64,000 nt of DNA from an uncultured Spirochaetales bacterium. GTDB taxonomy: Bacteria > Spirochaetota > Spirochaetia > Sphaerochaetales > Sphaerochaetaceae. Positions 28,991-54,568 of the stretch are shown in pieces (positions within the stretch are counted from its first letter, which is position 1; each line of letters begins with the position of its first letter). The position numbers and the translations under genes were made by a program. The stretch lies in the NCBI GenBank assembly GCA_944392695.1, contig CALXXN010000002.1:1-64000 (forward strand), given 5' to 3'. Under the pieces are notes generated by a model. That model searched no databases. It was not told the origin of the DNA and saw nothing but the letters and a program-made list of their open reading frames with translations.

Positions 28991-29686
28991 TCAAAGCGTG
29001 ATCGTCACATAGGATCCATCACTTGGATCCGTGAAGCTGATTCCAACCGCTTCAAGGCCGAAGCTCTGGCTTTCGGGTCCTCCGTAACGTGTATCACCAA
29101 GGAGGGGATGTCCGGACCAGGCGAGATGCGCCCTGACCTGGTGGCGGAAGCCACGGGTCAGCGTGCAGATGACACTCTCAGGGCTCTCGGCCTCTGTCTG
29201 TGTAGTGTAAAGCGTGGGAGACGTGTTCTTCGCCTTCGGATCCAGGGTGGGCCTCACCGAGGCACCTTTTGGGCCGTAGGAGCGGAAGTAGGAATTGATC
29301 AGCCCACACTCGTTCACAACATCATGATATGGATACTCTGGAAAACCCTCAGGCAGTCTTGCAGGCCCAGGAGGGAAGATGGCCCTGTACTGTTTGACGA
29401 TTCCATCCCGCTTCTGCTCTGCTGAAAGCAGGTCATAAGCCTCCTGGTCCAAGGCGAAGAGGACCAGGCCCCGTGTCGGGGTGTCCAGGCGGTGGACCAG
29501 CCCCCCTTCCCTTACAAGACGCCCCTGGGGGACCATCACGCGGGGTTCCTCAAGACGGAGCACATTGACAAGACAGGGCTCCTCTGGATCGTCACTCAGT
29601 GGCGCACAGGGAAGCCCTGATGGCTTGTCGACAACGAGCACGCGCTCGTTCGACCATATGGTCCTAATCGCGGTCTGCCGCGGCAT
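28991..29686 (-). CDS. RluA family pseudouridine synthase
   Basis: A 231-residue enzyme with the RluA catalytic motif GGLVHRLDTPTRGL (catalytic Asp in HRLD) and a typical C-terminal RGFRHQVRAHLAW. There is no S4 domain. It isomerises uridine in rRNA or tRNA; which site cannot be told. GAGGATTT precedes the ATG, which lies inside the 3' end of the Bax-inhibitor-1 gene (23-base overlap), so they share a transcript. Confidence 0.88.
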   Translation of the reverse strand: MPRQTAIRTIWSNERVLVVDKPSGLPCAPLSDDPEEPCLVNVLRLEEPRVMVPQGRLVREGGLVHRLDTPTRGLVLFALDQEAYDLLSAEQKRDGIVKQYRAIFPPGPARLPEGFPEYPYHDVVNECGLINSYFRSYGPKGASVRPTLDPKAKNTSPTLYTTQTEAESPESVICTLTRGFRHQVRAHLAWSGHPLLGDTRYGGPESQSFGLEAVGISFTDPSDGSYVTITL

Positions 29687-30377
29687 AAATCCTCAGGATG
29701 TAGAGGAAGATGTTCAGGAAGTCGAGGTAGAGGTCAAGGGCACCGATGATGCCGAGTTTGATGTGCTCCTCCTTCGTCATCTCCGCACCATACTCCCTGT
29801 TCATGGCGACGATGCGCTTGGTGTCCCAGGCGGTGAGGCCTGTGAAGACCACGACTCCGACAACCGAGATGATCATGTCAAGAACCGTCGATCCTATGAA
29901 GAGGTTGACCAGTCCTGCGATGATCAGGCCCCACAGCCCCATGACCAGGTAGCTGGACCAGGAGGTCATGTCACGCTTTGAGACCGTGGCGTAGACACTC
30001 ATTCCAACGAACATCAGCGCTGTCGTCAGGAAGGCCTTCCAGATCACGGCATCAGTGTATGCCAGGAAGATTGATGAAAGGCTGAGGCCCATCAGGGCTG
30101 AATAGCCAAGGAAGGTCAGCGTCGCCGCCCCTGTCGAGAAGCGCTCGACACGGCTGGAGAGTATGAAGACCAGGGCGAACTGCGCAACCAGGAGCAGGAT
30201 GCTTCCTGCTGGATTGAGCAGTACGAGGCGTATGACCGTCTCGCTTGTCGATGCGGCGAAAGCCACAAGGGCTGTCACCAAGAGGCCAAGTGACATATGG
30301 AGGTAGACATTGCGCAGCAGCGTGTTCTCCCTCTTCTGTGTATTGGCCAGTACTCTTATGTTCGTGTTCTCTGTCAT
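29664..30377 (-). CDS. Bax inhibitor-1/YccA family membrane protein
   Basis: A 237-residue protein with seven hydrophobic segments and the BI-1 C-terminal features (VFTGLTAWDTKRI, then LGIIGALDLYLDFLNIFLYIL). Known members are pH-sensitive calcium leak channels or interact with FtsH. GAGGAA precedes the ATG. Confidence 0.9.
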   Translation of the reverse strand: MTENTNIRVLANTQKRENTLLRNVYLHMSLGLLVTALVAFAASTSETVIRLVLLNPAGSILLLVAQFALVFILSSRVERFSTGAATLTFLGYSALMGLSLSSIFLAYTDAVIWKAFLTTALMFVGMSVYATVSKRDMTSWSSYLVMGLWGLIIAGLVNLFIGSTVLDMIISVVGVVVFTGLTAWDTKRIVAMNREYGAEMTKEEHIKLGIIGALDLYLDFLNIFLYILRIYAAADRD

Positions 30378-30404
30378 AAGCTTTCCTCGTGATCACTCCC
30401 CTTA

Positions 30405-30432
30405 AAGATAGCTGATTGTCAAATCAAGTCAA
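30405..30432 (-). promoter_or_regulatory. Promoter of the Bax-inhibitor-1/pseudouridine synthase pair
   Basis: Minus strand: -35 TTGACT (30427-30432), 16-base spacer, -10 TATCTT (30405-30410). Confidence 0.6.
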
Positions 30433-30505
30433 CACATTGGTACGTTCTGATGCATTAAACAACCTCATAACAGGCTCACACCCCTGTTCTAGCGGCTCCA
30501 CAAGC

Positions 30506-32479
30506 CTACAAGACAAACCCGATCCTGCGCTCTTCCTTCTTCCTTTCAGGTTCTAAAAAATCATCTGCGAGCAGGGTCTTGATCTCATCAATGCCGGGTG
30601 ATGGTTGATGGATGAGCCTTGATGCCTGACGCAGCCTCGCCTGCTCAAAGAGATTCCTCGCAAAACGGCCGTTACCGAAACCAGGTTCCTGGGAGGCATG
30701 CTCGAAAATACGCCTCAACTTAGGCTCTGCCGCATCATCAAGCACCATCTTGGATTCAGAGACGAAGAGGCGGAGGATGTCCATGAGTTCATCCACTGTG
30801 TAATCCTTGAAATGCACATGGAAGCTGATGCGGCTCCTCAGTCCTGGGTTCTTCGCAAGGAAACGCTCCATCTCATCCGGGTAGCCTGCGAATATGACGA
30901 CAACAGAATCGCGATGGTTCTCCATCTCCTGGACAATCGTGTTTATGGCTTCATCACCATAAAGCCCATTCCTCTCTTCGACAAGGGAATAAGCCTCGTC
31001 GATGAAGAGCACCCCGCCATCAGCCTTCTCGAAGAACTCCTTCACAAGAGGTGCCGTACCACCAAGGTACTTGCTCACGATGTCCTTGCGCCCTACCTCG
31101 ACAAACTTTCCCTTTGGAAGGATTCCATTCTCCTTCATGATGGCGGCATAAAGGCGGGCGCATGTCGTCTTAGCCGTACCTGGATTCCCTGTGAAGACCA
31201 TGTGCCTTGTCATACCATCCAATTTGACACCTGCCTTTTCATAGAGCACTTCCGCCTTGGCATAGTCGACAGCCTCAAGGATCACACGGCGCACTTCATC
31301 AAGGCCAATCATCTTTGACAGCTTCTCATAAGCGCTGCCCCCGGCATCCTTGGCTTCCAAGGGCAGCTGGCATGGCAGATCCGCATAAGATGTGAAGACA
31401 TCCTTGCATAGATGCCGCATATACCAGGAAGAGTAAAGATCCCGGACCTCACCCATTGAATAGGCAGATGCATTAATGACGCTTTCAAGAGAAGATTCCA
31501 TTACGAGACCATCCTCCGCGCCTAGTCGTCTCACATAGGCCAGGGCCTCATCCCTCAGCAGGGCCTTCTCCTTGAGTTCGACGAAGGTGATACCATCCAA
31601 AAGGGAGTGCAGGTACTTCCATCCCCGCTCTGACTTCCTGGAGTACTCGATGATGAAAAGAATCTTCCTCTGCTTCTCCTTGATCAAAGGTGCGAAGTGG
31701 CCAAGAGTACCATCAGAATCAGACAGGTAATCGGAACCAGGCCCACTTCTCGGGAGCTTCAGCACGACAGCACCAAAGCTTTGCCTGTCAATGAACCCTG
31801 CCAAGTCTCCTGCATCCAGGTATGTCATGTCTTCAGGGCACACTTCCCACACCCTGGCAAGGAGCAGGCGTTTCTTCACAAGCAGGCTTGAAATCAAGAG
31901 ATTCCTGACCTCACTGCGTTCGACTGTATCTTCAATGTTTATCACATAGTGGACAGGATTACCCATGAATGTGTCGACCGGGCAGTCATAAATCCTGCCA
32001 AGCTCTTCCACCAGGCCTTGCACGTTGGGGAAAGATGCTACTTGCCTGATGGCCGCATCCTTGTCAGGAGGGCCCTCCTTCAAGAGGCTTTCCTTGATGT
32101 CGCTTCTGTAGAACTGGCAACGGGAGAGACCTTTGGTGAAAGGATCCTGTGCCTTGTTAGCCCAAGGATCCGCATCCTCCACAAGTTCGAAGTACTCTCC
32201 AAGTGTGATTTCCGTCACAGTCGAGAGATCGTATTGTATCCCAAAACCTTTGGACAACAGGACTACCACATACTCAGGCATGAGTGAGAGATCGTTGACC
32301 TCTAGACAGCAATGCAATCGATTTGGCCTCAGGACAGAAAGAAGTGTGAGGAAGGCCCTCTCACCCAAGTCATGATTGACAGACAGGAGCACACCAGGGG
32401 TTTTCTCCTTGACCTCCTTCTTGGATAAGCCCTTTTTGTCATGCCCCTTGGGGGCGGTGTTGAATTGGTAGTATCGCAT
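30506..32479 (-). CDS. CbxX/CfxQ (SpoVK)-type AAA ATPase
   Basis: A 657-residue protein. The C-terminal third is a complete CbxX-type AAA domain: Walker A GNPGTAKT (431-438), Walker B LFIDEA (491-496), then FAGYPDEMERFLAKNPGLRSR with the arginine finger. The N-terminal ~400 residues have no clear family match; the stretch ~215-330 looks like a degenerate second ATPase fold without a P-loop. The best-known members are Rubisco activases and sporulation SpoVK; this one is neither by context. It is divergent from a WYL regulator and toxin-like gene, suggesting a stress or defence chaperone. GGAGGATTTAC precedes the ATG. Confidence 0.85.
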   Translation of the reverse strand: MRYYQFNTAPKGHDKKGLSKKEVKEKTPGVLLSVNHDLGERAFLTLLSVLRPNRLHCCLEVNDLSLMPEYVVVLLSKGFGIQYDLSTVTEITLGEYFELVEDADPWANKAQDPFTKGLSRCQFYRSDIKESLLKEGPPDKDAAIRQVASFPNVQGLVEELGRIYDCPVDTFMGNPVHYVINIEDTVERSEVRNLLISSLLVKKRLLLARVWEVCPEDMTYLDAGDLAGFIDRQSFGAVVLKLPRSGPGSDYLSDSDGTLGHFAPLIKEKQRKILFIIEYSRKSERGWKYLHSLLDGITFVELKEKALLRDEALAYVRRLGAEDGLVMESSLESVINASAYSMGEVRDLYSSWYMRHLCKDVFTSYADLPCQLPLEAKDAGGSAYEKLSKMIGLDEVRRVILEAVDYAKAEVLYEKAGVKLDGMTRHMVFTGNPGTAKTTCARLYAAIMKENGILPKGKFVEVGRKDIVSKYLGGTAPLVKEFFEKADGGVLFIDEAYSLVEERNGLYGDEAINTIVQEMENHRDSVVVIFAGYPDEMERFLAKNPGLRSRISFHVHFKDYTVDELMDILRLFVSESKMVLDDAAEPKLRRIFEHASQEPGFGNGRFARNLFEQARLRQASRLIHQPSPGIDEIKTLLADDFLEPERKKEERRIGFVL

Positions 32480-32501
32480 GTAAATCCTCCATCACAGGAG
32501 C

Positions 32502-32512
32502 CATGCTATAAT
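32502..32512 (+). promoter_or_regulatory. Extended -10 promoter of the WYL-Doc pair
   Basis: Tgctataat is an extended -10 (TGn-TATAAT at 32507-32512); no good -35 is seen. It lies in the 70-base gap between two divergent genes and overlaps the likely promoter of the AAA gene. Confidence 0.5.
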
Positions 32513-32549
32513 CCAGGACTGAAGATTCTGTTCATAGGAAACCAACAAA

Positions 32550-33635
32550 ATGAAGGACTATTTGGACGAATACATCATAGCCACACGACTCATACACCGT
32601 CCACAGGGAGCGAGCATCGAGGAGCTCTCAAAGGCGCTGGACAAGACGCCACGAGCGGTCTTCACCATACTCAACCAGCTGGACTCGATGATGTTCCCCA
32701 TCTACGACAGCCCGGATCCAGACAATCCGAAGAAGAAACGCTATCACTCAGAAGGCACCTTTGCGGAATACCTCCCCTCACTCAGCTTCAGCGAAGAGGA
32801 GAAGGCTGTATTCAACTACCTTGTCAACTCATCGGAGAACATCCCCGCCATGCAAGTCGAGGCACGGCGACTGCTCAACAAGATCCGGCTGATGGCGGCT
32901 GAACGAGGTGCCTTGATCGAGAATGGCAATAGGAAGCCTGTCTCCATCATCAGTGCAAGGGCCCAGGTTAAGGCAGTCGACGGGCTGAAGCTTACCCGCA
33001 TAACAGGGGAAATCCTTGATGCCATCAGGGAAAAGAAGTGGGTGACATTTAGATACAAGGGCGTCATGAGTGACACAGCATATAGCTATCAGGTCTTCCC
33101 CATCGTCATCTTCACACACAAGGGTGACTGTTATCTCTACATAAGGAACAAACGTGGCAAACTAAAGGTCCTGGCCCTTGAGAGGATCCTGTATATTGAA
33201 AACACATACCTTGACACCATCCCCACAGGCGATGAAGACATCTACAAGCTTCTTGACGACCCCTTTGGATTCATGTCAGACATGGAGGAGACCGAGGTCG
33301 TCCTGGTGGTTGATGCCGACCAGGCACCCTTTGAAAAGGCGATGAACTGGCCTGGGTCGGTCAAGCTCACCGACAACGCAGATGGAAGCCTGACCATCAG
33401 GGCAAGGACCCACTCCTGTTTCGACCTGATGCGCTGGATCCTCGCCCGCACCCCACATATCAAGATCATATCACCTGACTGGATCCGTGAAGATGCCATA
33501 CAGGCGATGAGGTATGGTATCGAGGCGAACACTTTTCCAGAAGCAATGGACACCGGCAATCCAGAAGACATCGTGGACGTCGCTGGACATATACTCGAAG
33601 AACACCTGGAAGCCTTCAAGGAGCTTGCTAGATGA
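32550..33635 (+). CDS. WYL-domain transcriptional regulator 1
   Basis: A 361-residue regulator: an N-terminal winged helix (IEELSKALDKTPRAVFTILNQLD), a WYL domain (~150-240; KKWVTFRYKG ... YSYQVFPIVIFTHKGDCYLYI) and a C-terminal WCX-like domain (SFDLMRWIL-type motif CFDLMRWILARTP). WYL domains sense ligands, and many such regulators control defence genes. Its stop overlaps the doc start (ATGA). It probably controls itself, doc and perhaps the divergent AAA gene. Confidence 0.88.
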   Translation: MKDYLDEYIIATRLIHRPQGASIEELSKALDKTPRAVFTILNQLDSMMFPIYDSPDPDNPKKKRYHSEGTFAEYLPSLSFSEEEKAVFNYLVNSSENIPAMQVEARRLLNKIRLMAAERGALIENGNRKPVSIISARAQVKAVDGLKLTRITGEILDAIREKKWVTFRYKGVMSDTAYSYQVFPIVIFTHKGDCYLYIRNKRGKLKVLALERILYIENTYLDTIPTGDEDIYKLLDDPFGFMSDMEETEVVLVVDADQAPFEKAMNWPGSVKLTDNADGSLTIRARTHSCFDLMRWILARTPHIKIISPDWIREDAIQAMRYGIEANTFPEAMDTGNPEDIVDVAGHILEEHLEAFKELAR

Positions 33636-34036
33636 TCCGTCCAAGTGAAGAACAAGTCATAGCGATCTACAAGTTATTGGTGGAAAAGACAGGCGGGACC
33701 TTTGGACTGAGGGACGAAGGGCTCCTTGACTCAGCCCTGAACTCAGCCTTCCAGACCTTTGGAGGAGAAGAACTCTATCCCACGCTAGAGGAGAAAGCCG
33801 CCCGCCTGGCCTGCTCCCTTGTCTCCAACCACGCCTTTGTCGATGGCAACAAGCGCATAGGTGTGCTTGTGATGCTGAGCTTCCTCTGCGTCAACGGAAT
33901 CGAGACAAGATGCACAGATGAAGAACTCATCAAACTGGGCCTTGGGCTTGCCGCAGGAGAAGTATCCTACGATGAATTGCTGAGCTGGATCACAATCACG
34001 AAGGTTGAGCATCATACAGTGCAGCCATCGCCTTGA
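33632..34036 (+). CDS. Doc-type Fic-domain toxin
   Basis: A 134-residue protein with the Doc signature HAFVDGNKR (67-75), i.e. H-x-F-x-D/E-G-N-K-R. Doc from P1 phosphorylates EF-Tu and stops translation. The usual partner Phd is absent: the gene just upstream, co-translated by a 4-base overlap, is the WYL regulator. The catalytic motif appears intact. It converges with, and overlaps by 41 bases, the second WYL gene. Confidence 0.88.
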   Translation: MIRPSEEQVIAIYKLLVEKTGGTFGLRDEGLLDSALNSAFQTFGGEELYPTLEEKAARLACSLVSNHAFVDGNKRIGVLVMLSFLCVNGIETRCTDEELIKLGLGLAAGEVSYDELLSWITITKVEHHTVQPSP

Positions 34037-34973
34037 CATCTCCAGCTATTTCAGCCCTCAATGAAGCAGGTTCAATGACCTCGGCTGCCGTACCCAGTGA
34101 AAGCACCCATCGCTTCAACCAGTACCTGCCATGTGTCCTGACAGTGAAGAGCCATCCATCTCCGTCCTCTAAGATGCTGACGCTATCAGGCCAGGCCTTC
34201 TCCTTCTCATAACACCCCTGATCCCAATCAATCCGGACGACAGCAGTGAATGGCTCTTCCTCTCTCACTATTCCAAAAGGATCTGAAAATATTGGCTCAA
34301 TGTCGATTTCTGGCTCTGGCCTTTTCTTGTCAGGAACCTGCAAGGGCTTGAGCATGCTCTCTATACGTGGCACGGAAATCGTATAACAACGAGAGCCATC
34401 CTTATTCATGACAAAGCAATAGACACCACCACTGAACATGAAGCACTTCAGAGGCCATACCAAACGCTTTTCACCATTGTACTTGATATACAGGCTCCGC
34501 TTCTTATCCTGTGCTTGAAGCAACTTGAGCAAGTTATCCGCATTCTTCATGGCGAAATAAGAACCACTTCCTATCGGTTTGACAGTCATGGCACCTATTA
34601 GTGACTGAAGCCTCGAAATGAAGTCATCGCCTGCTGCACCAACAAGTGGTGACAGGTTGCCAAGGCTTTCCAACATGAACGAGAGAAGAAGCCTGTCGTC
34701 ATCAGAGAGGACATTCTGGATGAACCGGCGCCGGAACCTATCCCATGATCCACTGTCGATACGATGTACGACCTCCCTGTTCGACACTCCCCGTCGCTCA
34801 TCCGACTCTGATACCAAGAGATCAAAGTGTTTTCCCAGGTTCTGGAAGTCTGCGTACACGCTGGATCGTGAAGTGTAAACATCCTCATACTTCCTGATGA
34901 TTTCATTGACCGTGGCACCCTGCCCGGATGCGAGACAGGATGCCAAGTCCAGCAAGTGAAGGAAATCAGTCAT
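33996..34973 (-). CDS. WYL-domain transcriptional regulator 2
   Basis: A 325-residue regulator with an N-terminal helix-turn-helix (ATVNEIIRKYEDVYTSRSSVYADFQNL), a central WYL-like region (KRSLYIKYNGEKRLVWPLKCFMFSGGVYCFVM) and a C-terminal WCX-like part (HGRYWLKRWVLSLG). It is the last gene of the DUF262 operon and overlaps the 77-residue gene by 4 bases, so it is made together with the system it probably regulates. Confidence 0.82.
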   Translation of the reverse strand: MTDFLHLLDLASCLASGQGATVNEIIRKYEDVYTSRSSVYADFQNLGKHFDLLVSESDERRGVSNREVVHRIDSGSWDRFRRRFIQNVLSDDDRLLLSFMLESLGNLSPLVGAAGDDFISRLQSLIGAMTVKPIGSGSYFAMKNADNLLKLLQAQDKKRSLYIKYNGEKRLVWPLKCFMFSGGVYCFVMNKDGSRCYTISVPRIESMLKPLQVPDKKRPEPEIDIEPIFSDPFGIVREEEPFTAVVRIDWDQGCYEKEKAWPDSVSILEDGDGWLFTVRTHGRYWLKRWVLSLGTAAEVIEPASLRAEIAGDVKAMAALYDAQPS

Positions 34974-35203
34974 CTAGACCTCAGATGGAAGCTCTGCCCT
35001 GTCTTGGAATAGAAGAGGCCCTTCTCGCATCTGGCAAGAATCTCATCACTTCCATCCATGAGTTCTTGGAAATCACCCATCGATGAATTGGCAATACCCC
35101 AGATATGCCAAGACAGCCCCTTGTTCGTCGAATACTGCAGCTCCCGGGGTTTGGCAGGATTGATACGGTACAACCTGCCCTTGTAATTCAACATCGTAGC
35201 CAT
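34970..35203 (-). CDS. 77-residue mini-protein with Asp-box-like motifs
   Basis: Not recognised as a named family. Two short motifs of BNR/Asp-box type (S-x-D/N-x-G-x-x-W/F) are visible: LQYSTNKGLSWHI (23-35) and LFYSKTGQSFHL (63-74). Such motifs normally mark turns in beta-propellers, so this may be a single small beta-sheet module. It has GGAGG 7-8 bases before its ATG, inside the end of the upstream DUF262 gene, and overlaps the WYL gene by 4 bases. Being locked in the operon, it is likely a part of the system (partner or sensor); this is inference. Confidence 0.75.
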   Translation of the reverse strand: MATMLNYKGRLYRINPAKPRELQYSTNKGLSWHIWGIANSSMGDFQELMDGSDEILARCEKGLFYSKTGQSFHLRSR

Positions 35204-35206
35204 AAA

Positions 35207-37492
35207 TCACTCCTCCTTGTTGATTCCGCTCTTCGAACTAATCAGGGCATCGAGCATTTGAGTCACTTTTCCGATATCCTTCAGTTCTCCGTCCTGGTCA
35301 TAGATGGAGCGTATTGGGAGGTCATCATTTGGTATGATTTCATTCCTAGCATAGAAAATAGTTCCATATGAATCCATCACGAATACATCATTCTTGTAGG
35401 TGAATTCGAGCTTATCATTCGTCCAGCTTTGTGCTACTGCTATCAAATGGTTATTACCAAGCTTGCCTGGCTGATAGTAATTTCCCGTACCCTGGTCGAG
35501 CGTTTCACCAGATTCATCTCCAACAACCCTGTAATAAGACTCCGACAACCTGATACCAGAATCCAAAGCACTACAGAAGAACTTGTTGATTAGTGACTTA
35601 TGGCTATTCCCAGCCTCATCATCTATCCACTCAGTGTCCCAATACACACAAACAGACCAAGGGCGATTAAAGACGTAAGCATTTGACTTTGGATTTACAT
35701 AGAAGTTGGAACAGCCATTCTGCATCATCCATCTAATGAACCAAGCATTCTCCTTCGATAGCAAAGACGCTTTAAAGCTGCGAATCCTTGCATTACATTC
35801 TGCACATTCCTTGATTGAATCAAAATCATTTGACAGTAGCCCGACAGTTATATCTTCATAGCCATTACGCCATTCATCGACTTCGTCATATAACATTCCT
35901 CTGAAAATCCGATTTCGCCAATTCTCCTTGCTTGTGTCAAAGTAGAGCTCGTCCTGAGCCCATGGCGTCAACTTGATATAAGCCCTGACAATTGACTCGC
36001 AGTACTCATTCTTCACTCCATCCTTGTCAAACCAAGTGGAGAAGTTTTTCAAGCGGGTACGGAAATCCTTCCATCCCCTACCGCCTTTGTAGAGGAATGA
36101 GATGCAACCATCGGCGAATGCTGTGCTTTCAGCTATGATGATGTCAGCCTTGTAATCTGGATGCGTGTCAATCCACTCAGCCTTCTCGCACTCTTCCCTG
36201 TATTGTCCTCCAAGTGATTTGATATCATTACAACCAGCAAGTTTACTTAAAAAATCATCTGTTTCGTACAACTCATGTATATAGATATTGCGGACCACGT
36301 CTTCTTCTTTACACTTCTCTGTGGTATTCCAGAGGAGGTTCGCATACACCCTGACATGGTCTTTCAAAGCGGCAGATTCCAGTTTTGAAGCTGTAAGCAG
36401 GTACAAGAAGAAAAGCATCCTGTGCTTCCTATTAAAATCCTGCGTTATAAACGCTTTAAAGACCCCCTCTTCATGTTTCCATCCTTTCTCTGCCCTCACA
36501 TAATCAGGTAGACTCTCATAAAACCCGGTGAAGACAGAACCATCTCTAATTAAGTCAAGGACAGCCCTAAACTCATCCTTGTGTTTCTCCTTGTACGCAA
36601 GATAGCGATCCTTGGAAATAACTGAGTCGTTTATGAAATCAGGCCTGCCATTATCATCATCCAAGATACTGAAGCCTTCAAACATGATGTTGACGATATA
36701 CATCACGAGCTTCTCGCACTGTGCAAGATTACGGCTCTCTTTGAAGTGTTCATCGAAGATACAAGAGATGCATTCATCAAAGACGTATGCAGAATCCGCA
36801 TCATCAGAGAAGAAACTGGCTTTGAACAGTTCTGCAGGAGTGAGCTGCCGCCCCCTGGCGTTCATCTTCCAAAAGATGGAGTCTGGAAGCTTGTGTTCTT
36901 TTCCATCGACAACTTGGAATGTGATGTTATCAAGCCGATTTCTGACTTCTTCGCTCATAGGCAACTCGCCAAGTTTGGATTCAATCTTCCTATAAGCCCT
37001 GAGCATAGCTGATGCTGTTGGATCTGTGCTTATATCGGCCATAAGGTCGAGCCACCTGTCCCAGTCATCATTCTTGTCAGCACCGGGCTCATGAAAACCA
37101 TCCTTAAGGAGTCCTGCAATGAGCGTGGAGGCAATAGACATTGTCTCGTAATTGAATTTGAGTAGGAAAGAATTCTCGTCATCCTTACATCCTTGATAAC
37201 AGAACACATGGAAAAGGAAGAGGGTTGTCAATCGTTGCTGTCCATCTATGGGACGTAAGATCCTGTTACCATTCACATTCCTGACATCCCCATACACATA
37301 ATCCATCGACAAGCTTCCGTTCTCACTTGTCAGCACGTTGCTGATTTCATTTATAAACAAATCAAGCACATGGCTGTCCCTAGGATTCGCCCTCCCCTGG
37401 GCATAGTCCCTTTGGTACACAGGTACGACAAAATCATACTCGGATAAAAGCCGCTTCAATGTATATTCATTTATGTTCCTTGGTTCACACAT
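35207..37492 (-). CDS. DUF262 protein without a nuclease domain (GmrS-like)
   Basis: A 761-residue protein with an N-terminal DUF262 domain: VPVYQRDYAQGR (24-34) and the ParB/Srx-like motif DGQQRLTTL (83-91), later KMNARGRQLTPAELFKA. DUF262 binds/hydrolyses NTP in GmrSD-type modification-dependent restriction. The C-terminal ~450 residues have no recognisable DUF1524 HNH motif and resemble nothing I can name. It starts 1 base after the stop of the DUF262-DUF1524 gene (TGAGATG) and ends 3 bases before the mini-protein. Base composition is markedly AT-richer than the window as a whole, suggesting transfer. Confidence 0.82.
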   Translation of the reverse strand: MCEPRNINEYTLKRLLSEYDFVVPVYQRDYAQGRANPRDSHVLDLFINEISNVLTSENGSLSMDYVYGDVRNVNGNRILRPIDGQQRLTTLFLFHVFCYQGCKDDENSFLLKFNYETMSIASTLIAGLLKDGFHEPGADKNDDWDRWLDLMADISTDPTASAMLRAYRKIESKLGELPMSEEVRNRLDNITFQVVDGKEHKLPDSIFWKMNARGRQLTPAELFKASFFSDDADSAYVFDECISCIFDEHFKESRNLAQCEKLVMYIVNIMFEGFSILDDDNGRPDFINDSVISKDRYLAYKEKHKDEFRAVLDLIRDGSVFTGFYESLPDYVRAEKGWKHEEGVFKAFITQDFNRKHRMLFFLYLLTASKLESAALKDHVRVYANLLWNTTEKCKEEDVVRNIYIHELYETDDFLSKLAGCNDIKSLGGQYREECEKAEWIDTHPDYKADIIIAESTAFADGCISFLYKGGRGWKDFRTRLKNFSTWFDKDGVKNEYCESIVRAYIKLTPWAQDELYFDTSKENWRNRIFRGMLYDEVDEWRNGYEDITVGLLSNDFDSIKECAECNARIRSFKASLLSKENAWFIRWMMQNGCSNFYVNPKSNAYVFNRPWSVCVYWDTEWIDDEAGNSHKSLINKFFCSALDSGIRLSESYYRVVGDESGETLDQGTGNYYQPGKLGNNHLIAVAQSWTNDKLEFTYKNDVFVMDSYGTIFYARNEIIPNDDLPIRSIYDQDGELKDIGKVTQMLDALISSKSGINKEE

Positions 37493-37493
37493 C

Positions 37494-39224
37494 TCACTTC
37501 TCCTCTATTGCGTTCTTGATATCTTCCAAATACTCATCTGCCATTTCCAATGTCCACACAGGGGCATCGGCTTCAGCATATGACTCTTGTCCTGCTGTAG
37601 GGATTGCAAATACAATCGCTGACACTTCAGGAATCATGTCTCCTTTCAGGAAGGCACTAGTGACCATGCGTTTCTTCACTTGGAAGGGACTGTTGCTGAT
37701 GCTCCTGTTCACTGAAGCAGGGAGCAGGCAGAGGTTCTTTATCGAGGTGAAACGCCAACTATCAGCACTGTCGTCTACATTGCTTCCAGAAGGCATCTCA
37801 TAAGTCCATCCAATCCCATTGCCAAGGGAGGATTCATCTTCTGTCGGGGGATATATCTTGGCACCGCTTTCAAAAGCCCAGATGAAGGCTTCCCATTCTT
37901 CTAGCTGATTGTACTTGACTTGAGGAGACTTATCTTCGAATTCATCACAGAAAGACTCAAAATCATTCAGGAATTCACTAACCTCGTTACGGCCATCATT
38001 TCCATGCCTTTTCTTCAGGACAGCACAGAACTTTTTCAATGTGTCAACATCCTTTATTTCAGCCCTTGCGTGTATATGCTCAAGATCGAAGTCTGTTTTC
38101 CGATATCTGTTGTAGTCGAACCTGACACAATGCTCGTTGCTCTTTACTGCATTGTGGAACAGGAGGATCGTCTTTATTTCGCTGTTGTTTTTCCCGTACA
38201 CCAGCTTTTCAATATCTCCTATTCCATTGACTACATTGGATGCGAGGCTTTGCAAGCTATCAAGTCCTTTGAAAAGCTTTGAACAAAGCGGAACAGGACC
38301 TTCATGATAGGGACAGCAGGAAATGAAGCCATAGAAGTTGTACAGGGTGACATCCTCGTATACCTGCTTCATACTCCTCATCAGTGTTTCCAATGCGGTA
38401 AGCAAATCAACGGCATCCCTGTCCTTCAGGCTTCTGAAAACGAAAATCGGATCCTTCTCGTACTCAGATTTAAGCGACTTCGCATCAACAAAGCCCTTTC
38501 CTGCCGCCTCGACCTCAAGCAGGAAATCCATCCTTGTCGAAAAATAGCGCTCGCACTTGTCCGTGTCGTCATGGCTGAAGAAGTAGAAGAAGTCATCGTC
38601 TTGCAACATGGCTTCCATGCGGGCCCAGCTTTCTACGAAGCGGTTCACATCAGAGGAATCAAGGACATCAGGCTCTGTCAGATAGTAGGCTCTTAGGATT
38701 TCAGCAGATGACAGAGGGATTCTGCCAACATTGAGACGTTCGAAGACTCTTTCACCGTCTTCGTCCGCGTCCAATGTACATACGATGAAGAAAGAGGCAT
38801 TGAGCTTATCACTGAAGGAGGATTTGCCTTGAGTGAATGGACCCGACCGAATTGCCTCCCACGCTTGTTCCAGATAGTACTTATCAATGGAATTGCGCTT
38901 GTTGATAGCCGAATCCCCTACATCGGTGAGGGATGTGATTATCAAGTTGTCAGAGGCCGAATTCAGCTCCTTCCAAATCAAGGACAATGTGGTCAGACGC
39001 TGCTGCCCATCGACAATCGATACTTTTCCCTCATTCTCTTGAAGAACAATTGGTTGCAGGCAATATCCGTTGTCCTTATCGCTTTCATTAATATCATCGA
39101 GCAAAGCCTCGATTTCACGATTTGTCCATCTGTATCCCCGCTGATAGTAAGGGATGTCAAAGCCTGTCTTAGCATATTGCTCGAACAATTCTTTGACGCT
39201 TTTCACTTCTGTTTTCACACACAT
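37494..39224 (-). CDS. DUF262-DUF1524 protein, GmrSD-type restriction nuclease
   Basis: A 576-residue protein with both halves of a GmrSD-type enzyme. N-terminal DUF262: IPYYQRGYRW (24-33) and VDGQQRLTTL (71-80), then FERLNVGRIPLSSAEIL. C-terminal DUF1524 (His-Me finger/HNH-like): DFDLEHIHAR (378-387) and NLCLLPASVNRSISNSPF (497-514) with K518. GmrSD enzymes cut DNA with modified bases (type IV restriction). The canonical EHI-x-P is EHIHA here. It is the first gene of a four-gene operon; AAGGTGG precedes the ATG. AT-rich relative to neighbours. Confidence 0.88.
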   Translation of the reverse strand: MCVKTEVKSVKELFEQYAKTGFDIPYYQRGYRWTNREIEALLDDINESDKDNGYCLQPIVLQENEGKVSIVDGQQRLTTLSLIWKELNSASDNLIITSLTDVGDSAINKRNSIDKYYLEQAWEAIRSGPFTQGKSSFSDKLNASFFIVCTLDADEDGERVFERLNVGRIPLSSAEILRAYYLTEPDVLDSSDVNRFVESWARMEAMLQDDDFFYFFSHDDTDKCERYFSTRMDFLLEVEAAGKGFVDAKSLKSEYEKDPIFVFRSLKDRDAVDLLTALETLMRSMKQVYEDVTLYNFYGFISCCPYHEGPVPLCSKLFKGLDSLQSLASNVVNGIGDIEKLVYGKNNSEIKTILLFHNAVKSNEHCVRFDYNRYRKTDFDLEHIHARAEIKDVDTLKKFCAVLKKRHGNDGRNEVSEFLNDFESFCDEFEDKSPQVKYNQLEEWEAFIWAFESGAKIYPPTEDESSLGNGIGWTYEMPSGSNVDDSADSWRFTSIKNLCLLPASVNRSISNSPFQVKKRMVTSAFLKGDMIPEVSAIVFAIPTAGQESYAEADAPVWTLEMADEYLEDIKNAIEEK

Positions 39225-39267
39225 CCACCTTCTTCCGTGCTTGATACTTGCAATCTAACATGACATG

Positions 39268-39285
39268 TGTCCAGAAAGCTGGACA
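39268..39285. promoter_or_regulatory. Inverted repeat in the divergent control region
   Basis: TGTCCAG-AAAG-CTGGACA is a perfect 7-bp inverted repeat between the divergent DUF262 operon and the FtsK-like gene. It is a candidate operator, for example for a WYL regulator. Confidence 0.5.
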
Positions 39286-39348
39286 GATAAAGCTTATCAT
39301 GAAAAACAAAGGAAGCAAGATTTCACGCAACAAACATGGAGGAGGTAT

Positions 39349-39873
39349 ATGGAAAACTTGGAAACATTGCTTACTGATGCAATCACAGCAGACAGGGGTA
39401 AGAACATCCTTATAACAGGAAATGAGGTCGAGGACAGGTTTGCGCTTCGAGACATCGTCTGGGGTCATGTTCGCAAAATCGACTATGGCAAGCCTTCTTT
39501 GAACATGTTATTCGAGAGTGTTGAAGACTTTGTACCAGAAGTGCAGGAACTACTGGATGCCAGGGAGGATCATCCTGTTGTCACACTCGATGACCTTGCT
39601 GCCAACCTCGACTTATTTGATGGTGTCAATGGGGAACGGGAAGTGATCAGGCTCCTCGATGCAGAGGACATCACAGTCATCGCTGTGACAAGGCACGCAT
39701 CTGCGGAAACACTCACAGATTTGCTGATGGAACGTTTTGATGTGGTACTCACTTCAAGACTGACATCTGATCTCAACAGCAGGATTGTATTAGGCAGATC
39801 TGGAGCTGAAAGCCTTGATAAAGGCACTGTGCTTCTCAAAGACTACAATGGAATCAGAAAGGCAAGGATCTGA
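39349..39873 (+). CDS. Degenerate stand-alone FtsK/SpoIIIE-like motor domain
   Basis: A 174-residue protein whose pattern follows the FtsK/HerA beta-domain: NILITGNEVEDRF where motors have a P-loop (the GSGKS is lost), VVTLDDLAANLDL at the Walker B/Asp-Glu position, ITVIAVTRHAS like the ATQRPS sensor, and SRIVLGRSGAESLDKGTVLL like the C-terminal SRTILGxxGAExLLGxGDML. It is thus probably a pseudo-ATPase. GGAGGAGGT sits at the ATG. It is divergent from the DUF262 operon. Function unknown; the family assignment is from pattern only. Confidence 0.6.
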   Translation: MENLETLLTDAITADRGKNILITGNEVEDRFALRDIVWGHVRKIDYGKPSLNMLFESVEDFVPEVQELLDAREDHPVVTLDDLAANLDLFDGVNGEREVIRLLDAEDITVIAVTRHASAETLTDLLMERFDVVLTSRLTSDLNSRIVLGRSGAESLDKGTVLLKDYNGIRKARI

Positions 39874-39947
39874 AACACTACAGGGCCTGCCCTCCAAAAC
39901 CACATACATGCTTGCCTCATCATCAAGCGTCGCACTATCTTTCCTCC

Positions 39948-40430
39948 ATGCTTGAAATCGTATCGGGGTATGACAGGCTTGATGATGTGAGATCGCTCTT
40001 CAAGGAGTACACGGCGATGCTCGTGGACACGGATCCATCCTTCCAAATCTATCTGGACATACAACACTATGATGAGGAAAAAGAGGATCCGACGGTCAAA
40101 TACGCCCTCCTCGATGGAAGGTTGCACCTGGCGCTCTGGGATGGGGAGGTGGCTGGCTGCATCGCACTTCGAAAGCTCTCTGACGATAAAGCTGAGTTGA
40201 AACGCCTGTATGTCCGTCCCTCATTCCGTGGTCATCACATAGCCAATGAGCTTTCAAAGAGGATCCTCTTTGAAGCAAAGGAGATTGGCTACAAGGAAAT
40301 CTACCTTGACACCCTCCCGGAGTTACAGGGTGCGGTCCAGCTTTACAGGAAGCTTGGTTTCATCGATACGGAGTGCTACAACGACTCCCCTATCGACAAG
40401 ACACTCTTCATGAAGAAGACGCTTTACTGA
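39948..40430 (+). CDS. GNAT family N-acetyltransferase
   Basis: About 160 residues with a clean GNAT motif A: LKRLYVRPSFRGHHIANEL (R-x-x-x-x-A variant), then IYLDTLPELQGAVQLYRKLGF. It acetylates an unknown amine. The ATG at 39948 has no evident ribosome-binding site; the frame is open to 39912. Confidence 0.82.
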   Translation: MLEIVSGYDRLDDVRSLFKEYTAMLVDTDPSFQIYLDIQHYDEEKEDPTVKYALLDGRLHLALWDGEVAGCIALRKLSDDKAELKRLYVRPSFRGHHIANELSKRILFEAKEIGYKEIYLDTLPELQGAVQLYRKLGFIDTECYNDSPIDKTLFMKKTLY

Positions 40431-40480
40431 TTGAAGATGTCTTGTGGACAGCGCGGCGAGGGAAGGATTATCATTGCCCC

Positions 40481-41149
40481 ATGCGCAAAGCCCTGATTCC
40501 CTGCCTTGTATTGATTGTCCTGATGGCCTCCTGCCAGAGCAGCCAGACAGGTGGCGCCGACGGCATTCCTGATTCCAGGGCGAGGATGATCCTCGTCCAG
40601 GCGGAGCGCAATGCCTTGATCTGGACAGAGGTCAATGCCTTCGCAGACATGTCGTCCTTCCCAATACCAGCATCCTGGGACAACTACATCGAGGACCTGC
40701 CACAGGTCAGGGCCTTGAGGGATGAATACATGCAGGAACTCTCCGCAGTACTCACACTGGCGCTCCCTTCTGTGACAGACCGGATGATGGAGGAATTGGA
40801 TTCAATGGACCTCTCTGATGTCCATGGCTATATCGATGCAGGACTCTCCAGCCTCACTGACGAACTCAGGGCGGCCAACGAATCATGGACACGTGGCCTG
40901 TTCGCAGGGTACCTCGCTGGGCATGGAGAGGCACTGGACAAGGTCTTCTCCCGTCTTGAGATGGAAGCCGGGATCTGGCAGAAGAACCTGGACAACCTCA
41001 GCCTGGTCGGACAGGGGCGTCAGCTCGAACCACCTGAGGAGGTCACTGATGCCCAGATCGCGACCTGGGCGGCCGACCTCTACTTCGACCAGCTCGCCGA
41101 GCATGAGGTCATGGAACGCCGCATACTGCTGGCACAGGAGGAAGGCTGA
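40481..41149 (+). CDS. Predicted lipoprotein of unknown function
   Basis: A 222-residue protein with a lipoprotein signal MRKALIPCLVLIVLMASC; the lipobox LMASC gives Cys18 as the lipidated residue. The mature part is helical and acidic with no family I recognise. Its stop overlaps the rarA start (TGATG), so it is co-translated with a DNA-maintenance ATPase, an unexpected pairing. Confidence 0.78.
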   Translation: MRKALIPCLVLIVLMASCQSSQTGGADGIPDSRARMILVQAERNALIWTEVNAFADMSSFPIPASWDNYIEDLPQVRALRDEYMQELSAVLTLALPSVTDRMMEELDSMDLSDVHGYIDAGLSSLTDELRAANESWTRGLFAGYLAGHGEALDKVFSRLEMEAGIWQKNLDNLSLVGQGRQLEPPEEVTDAQIATWAADLYFDQLAEHEVMERRILLAQEEG

Positions 41150-51944: not shown

Positions 51945-53267
51945 TTATTTTCGTCTTATCAGGCTATCACAAGGGGTAGTGAATTCAATGGCAGGGCTGA
52001 GGCTTGGTGAAAGCCCCATGGCCTCCGCTTCAGTCTTGAAGGCCTTGGCATAGGCATCTGAGGGAAAGCTCTGCTTGATATCCACCGTGATACGGCGTCC
52101 TGAATCAATCATGTTCGCACCAAGCCCCTTGGTTCCTGAGTTGTACAGGTGGATTGATTCCACCTTATCAGCGATCCCTCCAAGCCGGATCCGTCCGAGG
52201 TAACTCAGGATGAAGGTATCAAGGGCCATTCCTTCGAAGAAGCCCATCATCGACTGCTTCGCCTCATAGCCCTCGAGGCTGTCCAGCTTCTCAAAGAGCC
52301 CACGTATCATCCTGGCACTGTTGCGGCAACGTGCAGGAGAGCGCTGCTTGTCCATCAGGTCACGCCAGGATGAGACAACCTCCTCGACAGATGAATCCTT
52401 GTAGTATGGAAGGATAAGTGTTGAGACACAGTTCTTGAAGGTTTCATCACAGCCAAGTGCATGACGCATGTCAAAGGCCGTATCCGCCTTGACCGGCTTG
52501 TCAGCATCGGGATTAACACTGAGTATGGCTCGTGACATCAGGAGAGTGGCGAAGATGGCAGGCGTCGCATGGACCTCCTTCATCTTGGAAAGGAAGTCAT
52601 CACGCTCAAAGACAAGTTCGTAACGCCAGGAGGTACCGCCATGTTCCTCATCGCCTTCCACCAGGTGGTAGCCCTCCTTGGGCAAATCCAGCTCTTCCAC
52701 TTCCTCGACAGGTCCGAAGTCCTGGAAGAAGGGATCGTAAGCCAGCCCTTCTGGAAGCGGGTCACCTGGCAGGCATACACCATCCTCCGGCTCGCTGTAC
52801 TGCCTCCGTTCTTCGAAGTAGGTCCAAATCAGGGTCTCAGCGAATGGCATGATGCCTCGTCCATCACAGAGGGCATGGTGGAATAAGATGTAGATGCTCC
52901 TGTCCCAATACGTGATGTCGACAAGATGGTGTCCACAAGACAAGGAACCAAGACTCGCAAGACACTTGCTGTGCCGTGCTGTCATGGATACAGGGTTCTG
53001 CACTATGTAGAAGTCACCATCGACCTCCAAGGCCTTTGTGTCCACATAGGGGAAGCGGTTCAACGAGCTGTGCAATGCACGGTTCAAGGCATCTCCATGC
53101 ACCTTCTCGAAAAGACGGAACTCAAGGACCTCGCTCTCCACGCCACGCAGCTTGTACAGGTAGCTCTGACCCGCCCGGATCCTCTCATTACGGCCCCCTG
53201 GTACGGAACCAGAACTTGAAGCAAGCGTACGCCTGCAGCTACGTTCAAGTGCTTTCAAGATATTCAC
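51945..53267 (-). CDS. Condensation/acyltransferase-fold (HHxxxDG) protein
   Basis: A 440-residue protein of the CoA-dependent acyltransferase superfamily. The catalytic motif is FHHALCDGRG (HH-x3-DG), and a second typical region ends ILSYLGRIRLGG, where such enzymes have the DFGWG-like latch. Relatives include alcohol acyltransferases and condensation domains. It stands alone, so no product can be inferred. Confidence 0.75.
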   Translation of the reverse strand: MNILKALERSCRRTLASSSGSVPGGRNERIRAGQSYLYKLRGVESEVLEFRLFEKVHGDALNRALHSSLNRFPYVDTKALEVDGDFYIVQNPVSMTARHSKCLASLGSLSCGHHLVDITYWDRSIYILFHHALCDGRGIMPFAETLIWTYFEERRQYSEPEDGVCLPGDPLPEGLAYDPFFQDFGPVEEVEELDLPKEGYHLVEGDEEHGGTSWRYELVFERDDFLSKMKEVHATPAIFATLLMSRAILSVNPDADKPVKADTAFDMRHALGCDETFKNCVSTLILPYYKDSSVEEVVSSWRDLMDKQRSPARCRNSARMIRGLFEKLDSLEGYEAKQSMMGFFEGMALDTFILSYLGRIRLGGIADKVESIHLYNSGTKGLGANMIDSGRRITVDIKQSFPSDAYAKAFKTEAEAMGLSPSLSPAIEFTTPCDSLIRRK

Positions 53268-53812
53268 GATGACATCCTCCTGGAAAGGAAGATGCCCGAT
53301 AGCTGTTTCTTTTGTGTTTCAGCATGATGTCATATTTGACTCAGCAATACAGCATCAGGTTGCCTAGAAGATAGTATTCCGATAGGAATATTAGTTTATA
53401 TGATATGAATATCATAGCATTATAATGGTATTTTTACAGTAACTTTCCGATAAGACAAACCAGCTTCCAATTGAGGACATGTAGGACTCAGGACCATGTA
53501 TGCGCAAACTGGCATTCCACACAAGCTCTTACCCATCAATGACTGACATCTTCATCTGTGACATGAATCGTAATAATATGGTTATTAGCTTATTCGATAT
53601 GGTTTATAAAAAGTACACATAATAAAATTATTATATTTTATATGGTTTAAATATCATTATTCATGCTTTCTGCTATCTTACCGACTTGTTTCAACAATGG
53701 TAACTACTAAATCCTCATCAGTGATGATATATATCCAACTTCATTATCAAATGGGTATTACGTGTTTTGATTTCATTGCAATTGATTAATGGTGCTGGCT
53801 ACAATCATTTCC
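53268..53812. other. AT-rich intergenic stretch without a gene
   Basis: About 545 bases with no credible open frame on either strand. From about 53380 the sequence is strikingly AT-rich compared with the window. It holds several inverted repeats, among them TATTCC-gata-GGAATA (near 53375) and TATGATAT-ga-ATATCATA (53399-53416). Confidence 0.7.
53399..53416. promoter_or_regulatory. Palindrome in the AT-rich stretch
   Basis: TATGATAT-GA-ATATCATA, 8-bp perfect arms. Possibly an operator, but no regulator is adjacent. Confidence 0.35.
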
Positions 53813-54568
53813 ATGGCTTTCGATACACATTTCCACCTGCTCTCGATGGAAGAGAAAGGAATTGATACAGCATCACTGGAAGGGTTGTCCGGCATGGACA
53901 TCGGCTGTGAGCCTGGAGACATGGAAGAACGTCTTCCATTGATTGAAAAACACCCAGGGCTCTACTACTCAGTCGCCGCAGGCCCTTGGTGTGCCAAGGA
54001 CCATGCATCAGTCAGTGGCCTTGTCAACAGGATTGAAGCTGATATCAAGAGGTGGAAGCCCCACTTCATCGGAGAGATTGGTCTGGACTATTACTGGAAG
54101 TATGGGGAGGAAGGTGTCCAGGAGGAACTCTTCCGGGCACAGCTCGACCTTGCCAGGGAGACAGGCCTGCCTGTGTCAATCCACAACAGGGATGCGAATG
54201 AGGATACCGTACGCCTCCTTGAGGAAGCCGCTTTGCCACAGGCAGGGATCATCCATTGTTTCTCAGCGGATGAAGAGTCCCTCGAGGTCTTCCTGGGTCT
54301 TGGCTACAAGATCTCCTTCGCAGGGAACATCACCTACAAGGCGAATGAGGAGCTCAGGCGCCTGATGCTGCTGGTGCCAGATGACAGGCTGCTCCTTGAG
54401 ACAGACTCACCCTACCTCGCACCAGTCCCTATGAGGGGCAGGAAGAACACACCACTTAACATATCTTATACATATGAACATGTGGCTCAATTGAAGGGCA
54501 TGGCTGTCGAGGAATTAGAAAAGCTTGTCGAGGAGAACTTCAAAGCCATCCTTGGCGGGGCGCACTGA
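53813..54568 (+). CDS. TatD family metal-dependent hydrolase/DNase
   Basis: A 251-residue TIM-barrel metalloenzyme. Motifs in order: DTHFHL (metal-binding His6, His8), GEIGLDYY, SIHNRDA, IIHCFSA and TDSPYLAP. TatD proteins are 3'-5' DNases or D-aminoacyl-tRNA-editing-like hydrolases. The ATG at 53813 is chosen because the motif normally starts the protein; no clear ribosome-binding site. It overlaps the convergent gene by 54 bases. Confidence 0.9.
   Translation: MAFDTHFHLLSMEEKGIDTASLEGLSGMDIGCEPGDMEERLPLIEKHPGLYYSVAAGPWCAKDHASVSGLVNRIEADIKRWKPHFIGEIGLDYYWKYGEEGVQEELFRAQLDLARETGLPVSIHNRDANEDTVRLLEEAALPQAGIIHCFSADEESLEVFLGLGYKISFAGNITYKANEELRRLMLLVPDDRLLLETDSPYLAPVPMRGRKNTPLNISYTYEHVAQLKGMAVEELEKLVEENFKAILGGAH

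Follow-up and report, generated by a model that had tools for sequence, protein, structure and literature searches.

Four consecutive minus-strand genes (33996-39224) in the window, by which we mean the whole 64,000-nucleotide stretch of spirochaete DNA that was analysed, encode two different DUF262 proteins, a very small protein with Asp-box repeats (the mini-protein) and a WYL-domain regulator. The two DUF262 proteins are called GrwA-like and GrwB-like here (Table 1), after the Vibrio system discussed below. The locus raises the question of whether the four genes make up a defence system that had not been described before, as the original prediction proposed, or a restriction system of a known type to which other genes have been joined, and of what the mini-protein might contribute in either case.

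Layout of the operon and its genomic setting

Successive genes are spaced by 1, 3 and -4 bases, where -4 denotes an ATGA-type overlap, and the ORF coordinates confirm the coupled arrangement that had been noted. The AT-richness was likewise borne out: the GC content is 0.44-0.50 across the 34-40 kb interval, whereas most of the window has 0.52-0.61. A putative ribosome-binding site, GGAAGAAGGTGG, can be read from the sequence ahead of the start of the 576-aa gene, and ~125 bases (39225-39348) are left for a promoter between this gene and the likelier start of a divergent gene. Promoter and terminator scans gave nothing better than shuffled sequence did.

The operon sits in a small inserted defence island of a gut spirochaete. 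The genes on either side of a ~10-kb block are direct neighbours of each other in 10 of 10 sister genomes from the same genus, so the block either was inserted here or has been lost in all of the others. Repeats marking the ends of the insertion were looked for around the block and none stood out. Besides the operon, the block contains an AAA gene, a WYL-Fic/DOC pair, a 202-aa ORF and an acetyltransferase gene. Comparison of the AAA protein with the defence ATPase IetA yielded weak matches only. The WYL-Fic/DOC pair is convergent with the WYL gene of the operon and overlaps its end, and short Fic/DOC-like genes of a similar kind occur near WYL genes in two of the other loci that were collected (L018 and L035; locus numbers are used here and in Table 1 to tell these apart).

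Table 1. Features of the window and of related loci (coordinates preceded by a locus number refer to that locus)
Feature	Coordinates	Strand	Remarks
Flanking gene	29664-30377		borders the inserted block
Inserted block, ~10 kb	30378-40372	.	ten sister genomes lack it at this position
AAA protein, 657 aa	30506-32479	-	CbbX/SpoVK-like AAA domain at C-terminus
Second WYL regulator with Fic/DOC death-on-curing gene	32550-34036	+	4-base overlap between the two genes
WYL/WCX-domain transcriptional regulator, 325 aa	33996-34973	-	start overlaps mini-protein stop by 4 bases
Asp-box mini-protein, 77 aa	34970-35203	-	two repeats; predicted two-blade beta-propeller piece
GrwB-like protein, 761 aa	35207-37492	-	DUF262 N-terminus, then long helical region, no nuclease domain
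GrwA-like protein, 576 aa	37494-39224	-	GmrSD_N N-terminus, helical linker, GmrSD_C His-Me nuclease C-terminus
Divergent ORF	39265-39873	+	likelier start 39349; no Pfam match; weak match to SspH C-terminal end
Flanking gene	40373-41149		borders the inserted block
Other low-GC dip	53001-54000		GC 0.427; outside the operon
GrwA-GrwB fusion, 1311 aa	L018 8251-12186		two DGQQR motifs and LDHIHA...GNLVLL nuclease residues kept
GrwA-GrwB fusion, 1350 aa	L065 12028-16080
GrwA-GrwB fusion, 1314 aa	L070 11485-15429
Putative membrane protein	L122 9202-10617		follows three-repeat mini-protein
Putative membrane protein	L125 9361-10677		follows three-repeat mini-protein
Putative membrane protein	L127 9206-10387		follows three-repeat mini-protein
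Putative membrane protein	L132 9231-10418		follows three-repeat mini-protein

The DUF262 pair and its known relatives

Two types of two-protein system with DUF262 domains have been described from Vibrio cholerae. GrwAB, reported in 2025 from the WASA lineage, is a two-gene type IV restriction system of the GmrSD family in which GrwA consists of DUF262 and DUF1524 and GrwB of DUF262 followed by domains of unknown function; both proteins are required, protection is abolished by mutation of DGQQR in either of them or of H431, N521 or N530 in GrwA, and the DNA-modifying enzyme DpdA is altered in escape phages (PMC12137116). Its sister type TgvAB, from VPI-2, likewise requires both of its DUF262 proteins, one of which carries a DUF1524 nuclease (PMC11411939); the gene order is reversed and the second protein is different (PMC11411939; review PMC12409362).

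The 576-aa protein of the window matches the Pfam family GmrSD_N at 2.8e-30 and GmrSD_C at 6.6e-4, the latter match (20 bits vs 23) lying below the curated cut-off. It carries the motifs QR (28-29), DGQQR (R76) and FxxxN (F161-N165) together with the nuclease residues H383, N497 and N506, and these last three, R76 and N165 are invariant in an alignment of 15 pairs. For the 761-aa protein, Pfam gives a GmrSD_N match (7e-21) and no match to a nuclease domain; its motifs are QR (27-28), DGQQR (R87) and FxxxN (F207-N211), and its family has conserved positions outside DUF262 at R381, N385, E433/E434, K437, E455 and G462. A search with a structure model of this protein, which is weak past ~residue 595 so that no fold is claimed for the end of the chain, found matches at E <= 0.001 to DndI and SspE only, both of which are GmrSD-family defence enzymes. 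A profile of the GrwB-like family, for which only spirochaete, Bacteroidota and Verrucomicrobiota pairs were used, matches SspE at 1.6e-15 and a DUF262 chain of 9jfl (the DndI entry) at 3.4e-20.

When set against the published description of GrwA and GrwB, the window pair agrees with it in gene order, in domain layout, in the presence of QR, DGQQR and FxxxN in both proteins and in the histidine and two asparagines of the nuclease. N497 and N506 are 9 residues apart, as are N521 and N530 of GrwA, and R76 and R87 of the window proteins are the counterparts of GrwA R81 and GrwB R86. The first gene has DUF262 followed by a DUF1524 nuclease, recognised by its invariant residues and the sub-threshold GmrSD_C match, and the second has DUF262 followed by a long region of unknown domains that includes no nuclease. 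The operon differs from grwAB in its additional WYL and mini-protein genes and in its host, which belongs to another phylum. Judging from architecture and motifs, the window pair is probably a GrwAB-type modification-dependent restriction complex, and we put the probability of this reading at about 0.78. The match makes the core of the operon one of a known kind, and the claim to an undescribed defence system does not extend to this core, since GrwAB (PMC12137116) and TgvAB (PMC11411939) are already on record as systems in which two DUF262 proteins are both needed.

Although TgvAB too is a DUF262/DUF262-DUF1524 pair that needs both proteins, a system of the TgvAB type is very improbable in the window: the nuclease-less tgvA comes first in that system whereas the nuclease gene comes first here, TgvA does not have the extended C-terminus of GrwB whereas the second window protein is long, and TgvAB, with a nuclease-less partner that is distinct outside DUF262, is nested in a type I restriction-modification locus, genes of which were not found in the 10-kb block by Pfam and PADLOC scans. 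The 576-aa protein also has the DUF262-DUF1524 architecture of GmrSD, BrxU, SspE and DndI, which differ in acting as single proteins. SspE and DndI work alongside phosphorothioate modification genes. A phosphorothioate-sensing system of their type was considered for the window and rejected, there being no sspABCD or dndABCDE among the scanned genes of the block and only the weak SspH match of the divergent ORF.

Most of the loci examined in relatives have a GrwA-like gene followed directly by a GrwB-like gene, the pair recurring in Spirochaetota and Bacteroidota, and of the 393 Spirochaetota genomes sampled, 35 have GrwB-like proteins. In three loci the two are fused into a single protein (Table 1). 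Such fusions of neighbouring genes are good evidence that the partners act together and, with the recurrence of the pair, they substantiate the earlier proposal that the nuclease-less DUF262 protein is a dedicated partner. The L065 and L070 fusions, in Prevotella and Parabacteroides, resemble one cassette. In sister species (L018, L019 and L026), ankyrin-repeat proteins are encoded between the WYL and the GrwAB-like genes or next to them; the window operon has none.

The mini-protein and its neighbours

Pfam matches of the 77-aa window copy to BNR/Asp-box and Reelin-B families are all sub-threshold, and a three-repeat relative passes the BNR cut-off. Members of the family (76-115 aa) have either two repeats (~76 aa) or three (~114 aa), and 37 sequences were aligned; the repeat signature is S-x-[DN]-x-G-x-x-W. 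The window copy is modelled with seven beta strands at a mean pLDDT of 87.7; the fold matches of this model are weak (best E 0.017) and nearly all to beta-propellers, including two-blade fragments of tachylectin-2, and profile matches are to Asp-box enzymes, reelin and sortilin. The repeat signature and the predicted blade fold are those of Asp-box/BNR beta-propellers (the GH74 enzyme 6p2l, sortilin, sialidases and the tachylectin-2 fragments), from which the mini-protein differs in having only two (or three) blades and no enzyme domain. Two blades alone cannot close a propeller, and self-assembly is therefore a reasonable guess. The mini-protein is no evident phage gene, since there were two fragmentary matches in viral contigs and none in phage records. 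Titles and abstracts of open-licence papers on GmrSD systems with WYL proteins, or on Asp-box proteins in defence, yielded no description of it.

The genomic surroundings of the family were surveyed in 78 loci (1.12 Mb), drawn from one-genome-per-species data with a profile of five copies and found by two short peptide patterns, which makes this an incomplete census. The loci belong mainly to Bacteroidota and Spirochaetota. A GrwAB-like pair or fusion is present in 19 of them, representing 15 groups at 60% identity, with weaker evidence for the second gene in one locus (L085), and 17 of the 19 lie on the strand of the mini-protein gene. This amounts to one pair per 59 kb, as against a background of roughly one GrwB per at least 100 Mb if genomes of 3-4 Mb are assumed. 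GmrSD_N is the commonest Pfam family among the immediate neighbours of the mini-protein (11/101), ahead of PDDEXK_4 and AAA, and the names assigned by PADLOC at these loci are DUF262 families and the candidate PDC-S26. The idea that the mini-protein is unrelated to DUF262, drawn from four spirochaete loci, was overturned by this larger set. In other phyla too, mini-proteins neighbour DUF262 pairs at a rate well in excess of background, and this, together with the recurrence and fusion of the DUF262 partner, upholds the prediction that the locus is more than a lone GmrSD.

Other genes recur in the survey as well. A DnaQ-type exonuclease gene (RNase_T) is present in 26 of the 78 loci; it recurs in the operons of L075, L076, L083, L095, L108, L112, L122 and L196 and adjoins the WYL gene in most of them. 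A putative membrane protein of ~390-470 aa is encoded directly after a three-repeat mini-protein in four loci (Table 1), and a Pfam scan of the L122 copy found no family above cut-off.

The association does not amount to dependence. Among 395 genomes from the class of one Bacteroidota member, GrwB-like proteins were found in 10 and the mini-protein in 2, both tallies including the centre genome of the sample, which was chosen for having both genes and is the only one with a mini-protein near GrwB. In Spirochaetota, a mini-protein lies near only two of ~40 GrwB loci, both in the genus of the window. GrwAB evidently does not need the mini-protein, as it is missing from nearly all GrwAB loci in both samples. 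Since most GrwAB pairs are without a mini-protein and most mini-proteins are without GrwAB, we regard the mini-protein as an accessory that WYL-associated defence operons may have or lack. Instead of the fixed four-gene unit of the original prediction, one finds a recurring set of parts, and the positions of the mini-protein and WYL genes vary from one locus to another.

Possible roles of the accessory genes

The 325-aa regulator matches WCX (2.3e-20, Pfam) and WYL (1.7e-24, PADLOC), and no helix-turn-helix was detected in it by Pfam. Within the genus, related proteins are encoded next to GrwAB-like genes (L018, 55%; L026, 38%), and a further relative is encoded with a mini-protein and without DUF262 (L035, 53%). 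In being a WYL/WCX protein beside a defence operon it resembles BrxR and CapW (PMC9122601, PMC9122588), from which it differs in that its gene is the last one, downstream of the effectors; by its domain, it is a candidate regulator.

We tentatively suggest, at rather less than even odds, that the two- and three-repeat mini-proteins might be a new family of self-assembling propeller readers or adaptors for GrwAB and for other effectors of WYL-associated operons, the closed propeller consisting of three copies of a two-blade protein or two copies of a three-blade one. By analogy with propeller lectins, which recognise glycans, the mini-protein might possibly recognise a sugar on hypermodified phage DNA.

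It is also possible, if doubtful, that the mini-protein and the WYL protein form a regulatory cassette mounted on varying effectors, in which the mini-protein would tune the activity or expression of the regulator and take no part in DNA recognition. WYL genes are present in 36 of the 78 loci (within 5 kb in 32) and in 12 of the 19 loci with a GrwAB-like pair; in L035, where DUF262 genes are missing, the two genes overlap by 4 bases, and on the Chryseobacterium plasmid NZ_CP033935, where the order is exonuclease, GrwA, GrwB, two AAA pieces, mini-protein and WYL (the gene order of the window plus an insert), they are 30 bases apart. Such a cassette is harder to reconcile with the 42 loci that have no WYL gene within the stretch and with L018 and L019, in which WYL lies beside GrwAB without a mini-protein.

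We think it unlikely that the genes were brought together by the clustering of unrelated genes in defence islands and that the mini-protein is a passenger. The block does contain Fic/DOC, AAA and second WYL genes, and other mini-protein genes lie in unrelated places, among housekeeping genes (L225, L226 and L227); in L036 and L037 the gene follows restriction-modification genes. Clustering of this kind could explain part of the co-location, though it does not readily explain how closely the genes are spaced on one strand. The 15 GrwA groups and the strand agreement of 17 of the 19 pairs also speak against a passenger.

Still harder to credit is an integral, required subunit that would make the operon a distinct three-component system. 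Such a subunit would fit the tight packing of the mini-protein gene in the window (3 bases from one neighbour, -4 from the other), its position 20-40 bases before GrwA in L080, L108, L110 and L115 and the excess over background, but most GrwAB-like pairs do without it, and in other loci the gene stands next to PD-(D/E)XK nucleases, AAA proteins, restriction-modification genes or no related gene at all.

The explanation that we favour joins the anatomy, motifs, recurrence, fusions, co-location and insertion, which were observed directly, to a mechanism modelled on that of the characterised relatives. The GrwA-like and GrwB-like proteins would act as a complex whose two DUF262 domains bind and hydrolyse nucleotide and help to sense modified bases in incoming phage DNA, which the His-Me nuclease at the C-terminus of the GrwA-like protein would then cut. 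The GrwB-like protein would supply the second DUF262 domain along with a large helical region, its role being that of a partner or sensor and not of a nuclease. The likeliest, though tentative, role of the WYL protein would be to control operon expression on sensing a nucleic-acid ligand. Just as tentatively, the mini-protein would be an accessory reader, adaptor or tuner that most likely assembles from three two-blade copies into a closed beta-propeller and modulates the neighbouring effector or aids its recognition.

The literature leaves open what the second DUF262 protein is needed for in two-protein GmrSD systems and by what means modified DNA is recognised by GmrSD enzymes (PMC11411939, PMC12137116, PMC12409362). 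The present analysis places the mini-protein family beside GrwAB-like pairs in several phyla and finds GrwB-like genes in ~9% of the sampled Spirochaetota genomes. The natural GrwA-GrwB fusions offer single-chain versions of the pair for study, and the recurring small partner is a candidate for recognition or control.
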